Below are positions 30,048-34,598 of a stretch of 34,598 nt of DNA, piece after piece. The translations under genes were made by a program, and so were the position numbers. Numbering within the stretch: position 1 is the first letter of the stretch; each line of letters begins with the position of its first letter. Location of the stretch: NCBI RefSeq assembly GCF_014696345.1, contig NZ_JACJPY010000048.1:1-34598 (forward strand), read 5' to 3'. Origin of the DNA: Pseudanabaena cinerea FACHB-1277 (GTDB taxonomy: Bacteria > Cyanobacteriota > Cyanobacteriia > Pseudanabaenales > Pseudanabaenaceae). The notes below the pieces were generated by a model. That model ran no database searches and had not been told where the DNA came from. It saw only the letters and a list, made by a program, of their open reading frames with translations.

Positions 30048-30968
30048 ATGCCCACCGCAGGTTTAATCATCATTTTAGGCGCAACCGCTACAGGCAAAAC
30101 CAGTCTAGCGATCGCCCTTGCCCAGCACCTCCAAGCCCCCATTTTGAGCGCCGATTCGCGGCAGGTTTACCGCGATCTGGATATTGGCACTGCCAAGCCA
30201 TCTCTAGCAGAGCGTCAGGGCGTTCCCCATTACCTCATAGATATTATTGATCCAGACCAAACCCTCACCCTTGCTGACTATCAAGATCAAGCTCAGGCGC
30301 TAATTGCCAAGTTTCATAGTGATGGCGTTACGCCCATTCTCGTCGGTGGTTCGGGGCTGTACATCAAGGCGATCGCCTCTGGATTGCAGATTCCCCGTGT
30401 GCCGCCACAGCCAGACCTGCGATCGCAACTAGAGGAGCTAGGACAAAATTATTGCTATCAACTTTTGCAACAGGTCGATCCCATGGGGGCTGTAAAAATT
30501 CATCGCAATGATCAAATTAGAACCATGCGATCGCTAGAGGTGTTTTATGTAACGGGAACCCCCCTCTCCGCCCAACAATCAGAACATCCGCCCAACTATC
30601 CCATTGTGCAGATCGGTCTGGAATGTGCGGATCTAGATGCTTATCGGCAACTGGTCAGCGATCGCACTGAACAAATGCTCAATCAAGGCTGGCTAGATGA
30701 AATTCGGGACTTGCAAAATCGCTATGGTGCAGATTTACCCCTCTTAAAAACCCTTGGCTATGGCGAAATGAGCGATTATCTTGCCAATAAGATTGATTTA
30801 GCCACTGCCAAAGAATTAACCATTACCCATACCTGCCAATTTGCCAAGCGGCAGCGCACATGGTTTCGTGGCTCTGGCAATGGCAATTTGCCAATTCATT
30901 GGCTACCCACTGGCAGCAGTTGGCAGCAGGTTTTGGCATTTACCAAATCCTTGGGCGTAAATCATTAG
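30048..30968 (+). CDS. miaA: tRNA dimethylallyltransferase
   Basis: Transfers a dimethylallyl group to N6 of A37 in tRNAs reading codons that start with U. It has 306 residues, the family norm. P-loop GATATGKTS lies at residues 9-17; DSRQVYRDLDIGTAKP (DSxQxYxxxxIGTAKP), HYLIDIIDP, LVGGSGLYIKA, GWLDEI, TLGYGEM and KRQRTWFRG complete the signature. The ATG at 30048 gives the canonical N-terminus MPTAGLIIILGATATGK; the upstream in-frame TTG at 30018 lies inside the tandem repeat and is rejected. Its last four bases (TTAG) overlap the stop of the convergent cyclase gene. Confidence 0.97.
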   Translation: MPTAGLIIILGATATGKTSLAIALAQHLQAPILSADSRQVYRDLDIGTAKPSLAERQGVPHYLIDIIDPDQTLTLADYQDQAQALIAKFHSDGVTPILVGGSGLYIKAIASGLQIPRVPPQPDLRSQLEELGQNYCYQLLQQVDPMGAVKIHRNDQIRTMRSLEVFYVTGTPLSAQQSEHPPNYPIVQIGLECADLDAYRQLVSDRTEQMLNQGWLDEIRDLQNRYGADLPLLKTLGYGEMSDYLANKIDLATAKELTITHTCQFAKRQRTWFRGSGNGNLPIHWLPTGSSWQQVLAFTKSLGVNH

Positions 30969-33838
30969 TGATTCTTGCTACATCCCTTTGCCACTAGCCA
31001 ATAGGTCCGCATTTGTCCTTTACCCTTAACCTCGATCGCCCCGCGTTCTTCTAAGACAAATTGCTGTTTGAGCAGTTCGTAGGTGGCGGCAGTTACTTGA
31101 ATTTTGCCCACCTCGCTATGGGATTCCATGCGACTAGCGATATTGACCGTATCGCCCCACAGATCATAGATAAACTTCTGCGTACCGATTACCCCTGCAA
31201 TCACGGCTCCTGTATGGATGCCAACGCGAATTTGCAATTTGCGTCCCGTTAGCTCCCGCAATTCCTGCACCTTCTGCACCATGTCTAGTGCCATCAGCGC
31301 GATCGCTACTGCATGATTATCCGTTGGTACAGGAATACCACCCGCCACCATGTAGGCATCACCGATGGTTTTAATCTTTTCTAAGCCATAGGTTTCGCAG
31401 AGGGTATCAAAATTGGAAAAGATAGAATTCAGTAAATCCACTAATTCTTGGGGAGCCATCTCTGAGGACATATTGGTAAATCCCACAATATCGGCAAATA
31501 GGACGGTCACGGATTCGTAGCTGTCGGCAATGATGCCATCCACCTGTTTGAGGCGATCGGCGATCGCTTTCGGTAAGATATTGAGCAGTAAGCGTTCAGA
31601 TTTCTCCTGTTCCGCCTGAAGCGCTTCCTCTGCCAATTTGCGTTCTGTAATATCATCCAGCACACCCAAAATGCCGATGGTTTTACCTTCACCATCAATG
31701 ATTGGCAACTTGCTAGCATCTAGCCAAATAGAATGCCCTGAGCGATCGGGATTGAGTTTGCGCTGGATCACATGGAGTTCAGGCTGATTTGATGACATAA
31801 TCTGGAGATCATGATGGCGGAAGATATCGGCTAAATGGGCATCTTTGATCAAGTCATAATCAGTTTTGCCAATGACACTTTCAGGGCTTTCTAGCTGAGC
31901 AGATGCTGCCCAGTTTTTATTGCAGCCACGAAATACCAAATTTGTATCTTTCCAAAAGATTTGCTGCGGAATGCTATCAATGATTAGACGCAGATAGGTT
32001 TTTTGTTCTTCTAAACCTTGTTCGGCCTGAATCCGCGCTGTGATATCTTGAAAACTCCATACCCGCCCAATGATTTGAGCATCTAGTTTTTGGGGACAGG
32101 AATAGCGCTCGATCACGCGACCATCGGCGAGTTCTAGTAAATCATAGCTTTCTTGATCAGGGTGGCTAATGATGCCCTGCGATCGCGTCATAAACTGCTC
32201 ATGGCTAATCATTTGCGTAGATAGAAATTCTAGTCGCAGCAAACAATCGGGCTGAACTAAAATCTCTGGCGACAGCGCAAACATATCCACAAAGCGCTGA
32301 TTGTAACTGGTAATCTTTCCTGCTTGATTGACAGCCACCACTCCATCGGCGATCGCTTCAAAGGTAGCCTTTTGCAAACTCAAAAATTCCGCTAATTCGG
32401 CTGTGCGCTGTTCTACTCTAATTTCCAATTCATCTTTGCTCTGGGCAAGGGCTTGAAAGGAGATCTGCAACTGTTGCGCCATTTGGTTAAAGGATTCTGC
32501 TAAAATCGATAGCTCACGCACATTCGCAGTTTCAATTGGACGATAGGGTCGCCCCGTTGCCAAATCTGCCGAAGCGGAGAGATTCGCTAACATATGGGAA
32601 GCTTCAATCAACTTCTCCACAGGCTTAGCAATCCATTTTGATGTATAGAAGCCAGTCACACTCGCACATACTAACGCCAGAATACATAGCACAATCGTGT
32701 TGCGGGTATTGATATCAATGCGATCGCGAAGATCTTGCTCTGGTACGACAACAATCAACAACCAATCTAACCCCTCATCGGTCTGAAGCCTTGTGATTTG
32801 AATATATTGAGTTTCTCCTTGCCACTGCAATTGGATTTGTTGGTGAGCGGCGAGATTTTGCCATTGCGGATAGCGCTGTTGCAGAGTGACGAAGATATTT
32901 TGCAACAATGGATGATGGCTCTGACTTGCTTCTAGCCGTTGTGGTGTGTTTAGAATCTGGGCGTTTAGCATAGGTGTGGAAGCAGCAACAATTGTGCCAG
33001 ACCTTTCTAAGATAAATGCCTGTCCTGTTTTGGCAATCTTTAAGGATGTGAGAAACTCGCCAATTTGGGTAAGCGGTAAATCGATCGCTAATACTCCGCG
33101 CAACTGTCCATCATTGCCATAAATCGGCAAAGAAGCCGTAACCCCCAAAACTTGAAGTGCCACAAATCGATAGATCGGACTCCATGTTACGCGCCGTTTT
33201 TGCATCGCGGTTTGATACCAAGGTCGTAGGCGTGAGTCATAGTCGTTAGTGGCTATTTTTTGATTGGATCTTCCTTCCCGATTGAGTTCATAGATGACTT
33301 TTTGGGATGGTGAAATTTTGTTGGCTAATGTCTCAAGACTTAATGGTGTGAATCGATCTAAAACAGAGAGGTGAAAAAACAAGTTGCCATCAGCGCGGCG
33401 TTCTACACCCACAAAATCCCCTTTAGGATTAGCAGCATAGAAGAAATAAAGATTTTGCGCCTGCTGCATTTGTTGCCAGATCAAGCGTGCCGCATTGCCA
33501 AAATCTTGGATATCAAACTCTTGATTTCCCAAGCTTACTGAAGCTTCTGGCGCAAGCTTGGACAGATCCAAAATTCCCACTTGGGCGCTCACGCCATGCG
33601 TCTGCAAAATCTTTAAGGGAATGCCAAAATAACCACGCACATGGGTTTCGATCGCATTGCTAACTTCTTGCCCAATCTTGGGTGCGAGTTCCTGTGTTGC
33701 TTCCCGCCCATTCTGAATCGATAGCCAGCCCGTAATGCCCACAGCCGCAATGACTTGGGTGACAAAGGGAACAATTAACAATATCTTGAGAGATAGTTGG
33801 CGATCGCGCTGCAATGGAGGGGATGGGGGCAAAGACAT
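30965..33838 (-). CDS. Membrane-bound adenylate cyclase with extracytoplasmic Cache, HAMP and two PAS domains
   Basis: A 957-residue class III nucleotide cyclase. A first transmembrane helix is at about residues 19-39 and a second at about 378-398; between them lies a Cache-type sensor (RLRPWYQTAMQKRRVTWSPIY, split as RPWYQTA and PIYRF, is the dCache hallmark). HAMP follows (about 398-460), a linker coiled coil, PAS at about 475-600 and PAS at about 610-740, then the cyclase from about 770. The metal Asps in VLFADIVGF and TIGDAYM are present, with Lys in EKIKTIGD and Asp in YDLWGDTVN, the pair that selects adenine, so cAMP is the expected product. The transition-state residues NxxxR (NIASR) are present. 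It should turn a periplasmic and a PAS signal into cAMP. Its start ATG at 33838 is clear. Confidence 0.93.
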   Translation of the reverse strand: MSLPPSPPLQRDRQLSLKILLIVPFVTQVIAAVGITGWLSIQNGREATQELAPKIGQEVSNAIETHVRGYFGIPLKILQTHGVSAQVGILDLSKLAPEASVSLGNQEFDIQDFGNAARLIWQQMQQAQNLYFFYAANPKGDFVGVERRADGNLFFHLSVLDRFTPLSLETLANKISPSQKVIYELNREGRSNQKIATNDYDSRLRPWYQTAMQKRRVTWSPIYRFVALQVLGVTASLPIYGNDGQLRGVLAIDLPLTQIGEFLTSLKIAKTGQAFILERSGTIVAASTPMLNAQILNTPQRLEASQSHHPLLQNIFVTLQQRYPQWQNLAAHQQIQLQWQGETQYIQITRLQTDEGLDWLLIVVVPEQDLRDRIDINTRNTIVLCILALVCASVTGFYTSKWIAKPVEKLIEASHMLANLSASADLATGRPYRPIETANVRELSILAESFNQMAQQLQISFQALAQSKDELEIRVEQRTAELAEFLSLQKATFEAIADGVVAVNQAGKITSYNQRFVDMFALSPEILVQPDCLLRLEFLSTQMISHEQFMTRSQGIISHPDQESYDLLELADGRVIERYSCPQKLDAQIIGRVWSFQDITARIQAEQGLEEQKTYLRLIIDSIPQQIFWKDTNLVFRGCNKNWAASAQLESPESVIGKTDYDLIKDAHLADIFRHHDLQIMSSNQPELHVIQRKLNPDRSGHSIWLDASKLPIIDGEGKTIGILGVLDDITERKLAEEALQAEQEKSERLLLNILPKAIADRLKQVDGIIADSYESVTVLFADIVGFTNMSSEMAPQELVDLLNSIFSNFDTLCETYGLEKIKTIGDAYMVAGGIPVPTDNHAVAIALMALDMVQKVQELRELTGRKLQIRVGIHTGAVIAGVIGTQKFIYDLWGDTVNIASRMESHSEVGKIQVTAATYELLKQQFVLEERGAIEVKGKGQMRTYWLVAKGCSKNH

Positions 33839-34003
33839 ATGGGATTGCGGGGCAAAATGTGCTATCTGCTGACAATAATATGTGTGATATGTTGCCTATG
33901 ATAGTTGCATTAACCCCAAAAGGTAAAAACTTACGCCGATTGGCTCAGTCCAACCTGTAATATCTCCGCCATCTGACTTCCATATTGCCCAATATTTCAT
34001 ATT

Positions 34004-34321
34004 ACGGTGCGGTGTAATAATCGCGAATTTCGATTGACTCGGTTGGAATGTCGGGAAGTGCTGCTTTATGCCATTCAAAAATGCAAAGATAAATATGGAT
34101 TTAAACTCTATGCCCTCTGCATCATGAGTAACCATATTCATTATTTATTGGAACCATTGCAGCCAGAGGATTTACCAAAAATTATGCACTGGTTGAATTG
34201 GTATACAGCGATGTGTTTTAACCGCATGATGAATCGCACTGGACATTTTTGGGAGAAGCGATATCACAGTACGGGCAAGGAAAAAGTAAAAAGGCAAAAG
34301 GTAAAAATTTGTAATTTGTAA
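34004..34321 (+). pseudogene. REP-associated tyrosine transposase (Y1, IS200-like TnpA) remnant
   Basis: The N-terminal part of a TnpA_REP-type HUH transposase. In frame from about 33995, sequence reads FHITVRCNNREFRLTR and goes on to YALCIMSNHIHYLLEP, with the two His of the HUH metal site, then FNRMMNRTGHFWEKRYHSTG. No start codon precedes the conserved FHITVR (a stop lies at 33974), and the C-terminal part with the catalytic Tyr is missing. After residue HSTG the reading frame runs into Lys-rich sequence and stops within a gtaattt repeat next to a palindrome. It is therefore broken at both ends and cannot act. Other coding starts, such as GTG at 34007, only shorten it. Confidence 0.85.
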
Positions 34322-34331
34322 TTTGTAATTT
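34311..34331. repeat. gtaattt x3 tandem repeat
   Basis: Three perfect 7-bp units at 34311-34317, 34318-34324 and 34325-34331, abutting the left arm of the following palindrome. It contains the stop of the truncated transposase. Confidence 0.9.
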
Positions 34332-34335
34332 GTAG

Positions 34336-34402
34336 GGGTAGAGCATTTGCGCCACCATCTCGCAACTCTCCACTAAAATCTCGATCCGCAAATGCTCTAC
34401 CC
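34336..34402. mobile_element. MITE/REP-like palindromic element
   Basis: A perfect 16-bp inverted repeat: gggtagagcatttgcg (34336-34351) and its complement at 34387-34402, around a 35-nt centre with no coding capacity. It lies exactly where the REP-type transposase reading frame degenerates, so it or its flanks may have inserted there. A related half sequence (gggcagagcattccc) occurs at 34542-34556. Calling it mobile is inference. Confidence 0.6.
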
Positions 34403-34430: not shown

Positions 34431-34556
34431 GCGGTTTGGGGATTGTCGTTGAATATTAGAGATTTTTGGCGGTTTGGGGATTGTTGATGAATGTTCGAGG
34501 TTTAGGGCAGTTTGGAATTTTCGATGATTTGCGAAGGTTTAGGGCAGAGCATTCCC
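34431..34556. repeat. Degenerate ~38-bp tandem repeats at the right end
   Basis: Three diverged units begin with gcggtttgg or gcagtttgg: 34431-34468, 34469-34506 and 34507-34543, with a partial fourth that runs into gggcagagcattccc. I find no open frame of note on either strand. 34322-34598 holds only this array and the palindrome. Confidence 0.65.
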
Positions 34557-34598
34557 AATTTGAGATGGTTGCAGAATTTATAGATTGTGGTGGGAATG

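Follow-up and report, generated by a model that had tools for sequence, protein, structure and literature searches.

A RAYT relic and REP hairpins at a contig end

The DNA analysed here, referred to as the window, is a stretch of 34,598 nucleotides from Pseudanabaena cinerea FACHB-1277. Its right end holds a dead copy of a cyanobacterial REP-associated tyrosine transposase (RAYT) gene, followed by a GTAG-tagged REP pair:

33983–34291, + strand: RAYT (Y1 HUH transposase) relic, codons 12–112 of the 265-codon gene on contig C29, 86% identical and stop-free, with NHIH kept and YIHANP lost
34274–34331, + strand: A-rich block and AATTTGT repeats (34306–34333), the interval between relic and hairpin; start of the block common to contig C100
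34332–34402, + strand: REP hairpin 1, with a GTAG foot, a perfect 16-bp stem (34336–34351 / 34387–34402) and a 35-nt loop
34431–34547, + strand: REP-pair spacer with direct repeats of 37–38 nt
34542–34598, + strand: start of REP hairpin 2, of which the contig end leaves the left arm (GGGCAGAGCATTCCCA) and the loop; C29 shows the other arm
34498–34598, no strand assigned: assembly branch point; these 101 nt also open contig C29 and close contig C100 without a mismatch

The open reading frame at 34007–34321 matches Pfam Y1_Tnp (1.3e-16) and, at 45 bits, lies below the cut-off of 80 for the NCBIfam family of REP-associated tyrosine transposases, which bears out the REP-type transposase remnant proposed by the first-pass annotation. 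DNA homology to the intact C29 gene spans 34002–34275 at 89%, and the 5′ end is missing as well, protein homology being visible only from about codon 12. This fragment of a RAYT family member retains the HUH motif (NHIH) and ends before YIHANP; because the catalytic tyrosine is gone, it is unable to cut DNA and should not be an active nuclease. The relic is adjoined by a 957-residue protein with Cache, HAMP, PAS and adenylate/guanylate cyclase domains (window 30965–33838, − strand). No orthologous site without the relic was found in relatives, in which homology to this cyclase gene ends near the gene start.

The annotation had the broken gene joined directly to a repeat and a palindrome. The repeats are present (AATTTGT, 34306–34333), but the direct joining to the palindrome did not stand: relic homology ends at 34275, and 56 bp of A-rich and AATTTGT-repeat DNA separate it from the GTAG foot of the hairpin at 34332. 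Sequence from 34274 on is common, at 80%, to C100:51706–52059, and the relic therefore breaks off within 2 nt of where a block also present elsewhere begins.

The perfect 16-bp inverted repeat was confirmed, with its arms 35 nt apart, and folded as single-stranded DNA the hairpin stretch beats each of 200 shuffles (z −5.5). It is not unique: searching the genome with the arm pattern gave 28 matches, and the reversed-pattern control gave 0. One of the 28 falls inside a tRNA-Thr gene (C104:34681–34695, in locus L019), where the match of the hairpin 2 arm pattern may reflect chance or an origin of the REP arm. Longer copies are composite, running from a GTAGGGG hairpin 1 through a spacer to an inverted hairpin 2 and a CCCCTAC end. 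Across 18 aligned copies of hairpin 1, the foot reads GTA in all 18 and GTAG in 17, 95.8% of stem cells are paired, and two-sided changes occupy 14 cells over four stem pairs, a count as high as which was reached in 0 of 500 shuffles. The palindrome is thus dispersed, GTAG-tagged and covarying, as expected of the REP-type element that the annotation had considered, and judged from its sequence the window stem is one half of a GTAG-tagged REP pair of BIME- or REPIN-like form. All 26 genomes of the genus match a 1059-nt query that also includes part of the cyclase gene, and among the matches listed many are to the hairpin region. The number of spacer direct repeats apparently varies between copies (for example, in L018 and L033), with more in C100.

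Since the window end is identical to both the C29 start and the C100 end, either the relic with its REP pair or C100 may directly precede an intact RAYT gene on C29. Comparison with relatives left both C123 and C100 as candidate predecessors of C29; the three contigs were kept unjoined, and the right flank of the window copy is accordingly provisional. The branch point bears on another reading of the window, in which the REP pair is taken as a MITE whose insertion broke the RAYT gene in two. The gene does end 56 bp before a mobile-looking hairpin, with its breakpoint near the start of the C100-shared block. The missing half, however, does not follow: the only known continuation of the 101-nt end starts a complete RAYT gene, and the hairpin pair on C29 leads into that gene instead of the missing C-terminus. 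The relic has, moreover, lost its 5′ end as well. We therefore hold an interruption by a MITE, also raised in the annotation, to be improbable, and a simple insertion was rejected as far as the assembly allows. A RAYT relic with a REP pair is a further member of an already known class and, by itself, ordinary.

An intact RAYT faces a NACHT-GUN4 gene

The genome contains one intact RAYT of the relic's family, of the kind that the annotation had suggested looking for (C29:135–932, 265 codons). It matches Pfam Y1_Tnp (3.4e-18), and its match to NCBIfam REP_Tyr_transpos, the better of two families matched, reaches 70.4 bits (E 1.4e-19), short of the cut-off of 80. The Y1 domain, the HUH motif and the catalytic tyrosine are all present, which places it among RAYTs, and NHxH and YIHxN each occur in 80 of 80 relatives. 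A search for solved structures related by sequence returned none at E up to 1. Relatives occur all over the cyanobacteria, with 150 loci confirmed, 80 of which make up the RAYT-locus analyses. The family is mostly single-copy, unlike more distant RAYTs (about 45–52% identity), which reach 7–10 matches per genome in G149, G089 and G246, small genomes of family f2, without a GUN4 tail. Relics are common: four genomes of the genus retain only the last 29–36 codons, three of these shown beside the tail element described below. In a 16-genome genus, only 4 genomes have a near-complete RAYT.

On C29 the REP pair lies on the 5′ side of the RAYT only, ending 21 nt before the start codon. A REP pair ends 21–22 nt before the RAYT start codon in L075 (Phormidium tenue FACHB-1050) and L136 too, and L124 has a differently spelled pair before the RAYT start. 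Across 77 RAYT-family loci, a GTAG hairpin lies within 600 nt upstream in 9 and downstream in 3, against 0 in shuffled upstream sequence. With hairpins upstream of only 9 of the 77, the REPs and the tail may be served by different enzymes. The window REP pair itself is a non-autonomous element, presumably spread in trans by an intact RAYT.

On its 3′ side the C29 RAYT faces a NACHT-GUN4 gene (GUN4 6e-31, NACHT 4e-12), which lies downstream on the opposite strand with its 3′ end towards the RAYT; gene end and RAYT are separated by a rigid DNA element of about 121 nt, the tail. By a DNA profile search, seeded from 56 exact tail matches nearly all in the same RAYT loci, the tail is present at 63 of the 80 RAYT loci, on the opposite strand and 29–572 nt downstream; 10 loci lack it and 7 are too short. 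An open reading frame of the target cluster is present in 75 of the 80 (single linkage). No third component emerged at these loci, the next largest cluster covering 18 and its example resembling, by eye, the target antisense frame, and no polymerase partner was seen among their clusters.

A 30-nt core of the tail occurs in 77 of 242 cyanobacteria, and the reversed pattern in none. Counted without correction for phylogeny, the tail is found in 25 of the 27 genomes with a RAYT (at least 60% identity and at least 200 residues) versus 52 of the 215 others (Fisher 3.4e-12). As for the two RAYT genomes without a tail, the RAYT match stops at codon 223 in G224, and of the two copies in G199 one contains two stops and the other, at 60% identity, is uninterrupted. 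Because a near-complete RAYT is absent from 52 of the 77 tail-bearing genomes, a role for the RAYT can only be inferred. The class set, counted with the tails known from RAYT-fetched loci included, comprises 124 distinct tails; within 1.5 kb, 22 of them have a RAYT of at least 200 residues, 22 a partial one and 80 none.

The source genome has two NACHT-GUN4 genes, each with a different hypervariable tail: one on C29 beside the intact RAYT (L042:1011–3458) and one on C153 (L043:1049–3394), which has no RAYT and carries two REP pairs in tandem directly past the element. The relatives L309 and L310 likewise have a REP after the element in the usual place of the RAYT, L309 retaining, by eye, the first bases of the RAYT frame. 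With a REP in this place at C153, L309 and L310, RAYT loss beside the tail is therefore recurrent, and the window relic, which has no adjoining tail, represents a further form of such loss. An A-rich repeat starting CAAGGAAAAAG often fills the RAYT-less place after the tail (L305, L306, L308, L311, L312 and L313); the L311 copy has, by eye, apparent inverted ends and looks MITE-like, and sequence similar to this type of repeat lies at the relic breakpoint (window 34276–34300).

A conserved tail that closes all three frames

The tail starts CTTYTCTCGC and closes all three reading frames. In most cases a GTTACCTGGCACC motif sits 108 or 109 nt from its start; within 400 nt of the tail, this motif is found in 58 of 65 cases with a RAYT, in 16 of the 23 whose RAYT is partial and in 32 of the 82 lacking one, and its reversed form in 1 of 172. 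Tail mismatches are 0.63 with an adjoining RAYT versus 0.96 without (p 0.008), and 0.64 versus 0.93 in loci not fetched through the RAYT (p 0.16); because of this last value, tail decay argues weakly for dependence on the RAYT. A small hairpin in the tail was considered as a recognised structure, and the covariation test did not support it, 303 of 2000 shuffles being as good. Rfam gave no match to a known RNA in L042, L075 and L077.

Clustering places 182 of the 183 target proteins with enough length for comparison in a single group; confirmation of GUN4 by Pfam covers the C29 and C153 targets. The PADLOC model PD-T4-6 matches the C-terminal 200 residues of these two targets (7e-34 for L042 and 2e-34 for L043). 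As the match covers the GUN4 region, and the model may include a GUN4-like domain, it was not read as a defence call, and no defence assignment was adopted from it.

A hypervariable stretch between gene body and tail

Distinct tails numbered 172 and later 199, collected from part of the tail places; those less than 150 nt from the locus start were dropped from the frame and composition analysis of the 172 and from the comparison within the 16-genome genus. An open reading frame of at least 60 codons ends at 165 of the 172 tails, and 156 of these frames run into the tail, divided almost evenly among the three phases (55/52/49). Nearly all (145 of 156) stop at tail position +21, +28, +35 or +44, and the length of the stretch preceding the tail takes any value modulo 3.

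The stretch has a base bias. Over the last 45 nt before the tail, the coding strand is 73% G+T, compared with 54% for the gene body (p 4e-26), and the three codon positions hardly differ in composition, as they do in the gene body. An open frame is selected for, with 181 of 189 stretches free of in-frame stops where shuffles predict 94.2. The G+T fraction is 0.754 in stretches with no RAYT beside them (n = 84) and 0.712 in those with one (n = 65).

The stretch is hypervariable between otherwise similar genes. Over 131 pairs with upstream identity of at least 85%, drawn from 59 records so that members are shared between pairs, mean identity is 89.6% upstream and 94.9% in the tail, and in the stretch 58.1%, versus 57.1% for random pairs. 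It is unrelated even where genes are 95–97% identical upstream, the 7 pairs at or above 95% having a stretch identity of 0.55. As for its borders, in the 39 pairs at or above 91% homology mostly stops directly behind the GHLP or GEFP codons and picks up again at CTTYTCTCGC, with a border distance of 30–90 nt in 63 of 78 values. The outliers include two values of 0, from an identical pair, and four of 265, where local alignment stopped early. By eye, and among the pairs listed, short duplications of either flank occur within the stretch. In 128 of the 199 records its last two bases are CT. L179/L235 is the sole pair of the 131 with an identical stretch, from one genome with only a broken RAYT (G190) and one with no RAYT at E 1e-10 (G214). 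Within the 16-genome genus, the stretch differs between RAYT-less genomes too, among the pairs listed.

That the GUN4-tail system is RAYT-associated and hypervariable is well supported, and the pattern of the stretch looks like junctional diversification without a reverse transcriptase.

Discussion

TnpAREP of E. coli and Stenotrophomonas is described as cutting single strands at CT beside a hairpin, keeping the 5′ end on its tyrosine (Tyr-5′P) and leaving a 3′-OH, the bound end being transferable to a 3′-OH (PMC8266576). Transposed to the GUN4 genes, the RAYT would nick the coding strand at the CT that precedes the tail (CTTYTCTCGC...) and hold the tail through a 5′-phosphotyrosine. Such a nick would leave the coding strand, which carries the G/T excess, with a free 3′-OH on its GUN4 side. 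This end would be trimmed and then extended untemplated, yielding a G/T-rich coding strand, before the RAYT rejoined the tail, which would terminate translation in whichever frame arose. In this scheme, the RAYT would be the likeliest cutter, the extension would probably be untemplated, and the variable product could serve as a recognition surface. We thus propose, tentatively and with somewhat less than even confidence, that in cyanobacteria a domesticated Y1 HUH transposase cuts the ends of NACHT-GUN4-type genes and rejoins them after an untemplated, G/T-rich extension. A sensor-like protein would thereby be diversified at a junction in a V(D)J-like manner, free of reverse transcriptase, while a fixed tail stops all three frames; the window relic would be a dead copy of this enzyme's gene. 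The best explanation overall, a dead RAYT with a REP pair in the window and RAYT-made diversification of GUN4-gene ends at the level of the family, seems to us evenly poised between right and wrong.

Several observations count against the RAYT as cutter: 52 of the 77 tail genomes have no near-complete RAYT, the RAYT-less stretches are equally G/T-rich, the tail hairpin does not covary (303 of 2000), and the 80 loci offer no polymerase partner. The RAYT could instead be a passenger of the GUN4 tail, which would give it a home site or an expression context, with another host factor (a polymerase, a nuclease or end joining) making the stretch. The persistence of tails and variable stretches in many genomes without a near-complete RAYT is what such a passenger would leave behind, as are the common RAYT relics, such as the four reduced to their last 29–36 codons, three of them beside the tail element. 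Against this stand the tail in 25 of 27 RAYT genomes and the motif 108–109 nt into the element, retained in 58 of the 65 tails that have a RAYT versus 32 of the 82 that lack one; in addition, the one pair with an identical stretch comes from two genomes without a near-complete RAYT, and no third gene recurs as widely at RAYT loci. We regard a passenger RAYT as possible, if doubtful.

A diversity-generating retroelement (DGR) acting in trans could also rewrite the GUN4 tails, given that GUN4-like target domains are reported for cyanobacterial DGRs (PMC7517822). A DGR, however, alters a template copy at adenines (PMC10907252), whereas the stretch is of variable length with no common scaffold left; judged at the loci, the GUN4 tails do not match a DGR with its reverse transcriptase, template repeat and adenine-directed change at fixed length. 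Nor does a third conserved gene lie beside the RAYT loci, in a search confined to those loci. A DGR as the source of the variation appears very unlikely. Returning to diversification by the RAYT, we infer that the linked system is a REPtron with a hypervariable partner gene, for which the mechanism above is proposed.

To our knowledge, what benefit RAYTs bring their hosts is an open question, and one RAYT family is now tied to a gene with a hypervariable end. The RAYT–GUN4 pairing hints at an undescribed bacterial way to diversify a sensor-like protein. If the RAYT does make the variation, bacteria would have a means of diversifying putative immune sensors that needs no template, for which a candidate enzyme and a defined 30-nt site are at hand. 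Even if it is not the maker, the hypervariable GUN4 tail is itself undescribed in the open-licence PMC papers searched, in whose available text no description of the tail or of its RAYT link was found.

GTAG repeats are known from cyanobacteria (PMC3733652), and a REPtron layout with REPINs or BIMEs is described for other RAYTs (PMC6006769, PMC3116915). Our elements share with the cyanobacterial GTAG REPs and REPtrons (PMC3733652, PMC6006769) the GTAG foot, a hairpin with compensatory stem changes and inverted pairs, as well as a genome whose single intact RAYT of the family has an element at its 5′ side. They differ in having a 16-bp stem and a 35-nt loop, compared with stems of 5–13 bp and loops of 2–20 in the 2013 table, and in that C29 has its REP element on the 5′ side only, with the GUN4 tail element on the 3′ side. 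As in REPINs (PMC3116915), two inverted REPs form one dispersed unit, but each half here is itself a long-stem, long-loop hairpin.

The DGRs of cyanobacteria and other multicellular bacteria, whose reported targets include GUN4-like and NLR-type domains, likewise direct hypervariation near the C-terminus of multidomain, conflict-type proteins, whereas the GUN4-tail loci have no recurring reverse transcriptase gene and no fixed-length scaffold, length and frame being variable (PMC7517822, PMC10907252). In effect, DGRs as described are the nearest known system, but they work through a reverse transcriptase and a template. V(D)J recombination of vertebrates combines a transposase-derived cutter with end trimming, untemplated additions and selection for an open frame. 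Its junctional diversity differs from the GUN4 system, which has one site and one fixed tail and whose cutter and polymerase are putative; with the route proposed here it shares, by analogy only, cutting, trimming, untemplated additions and an open frame.
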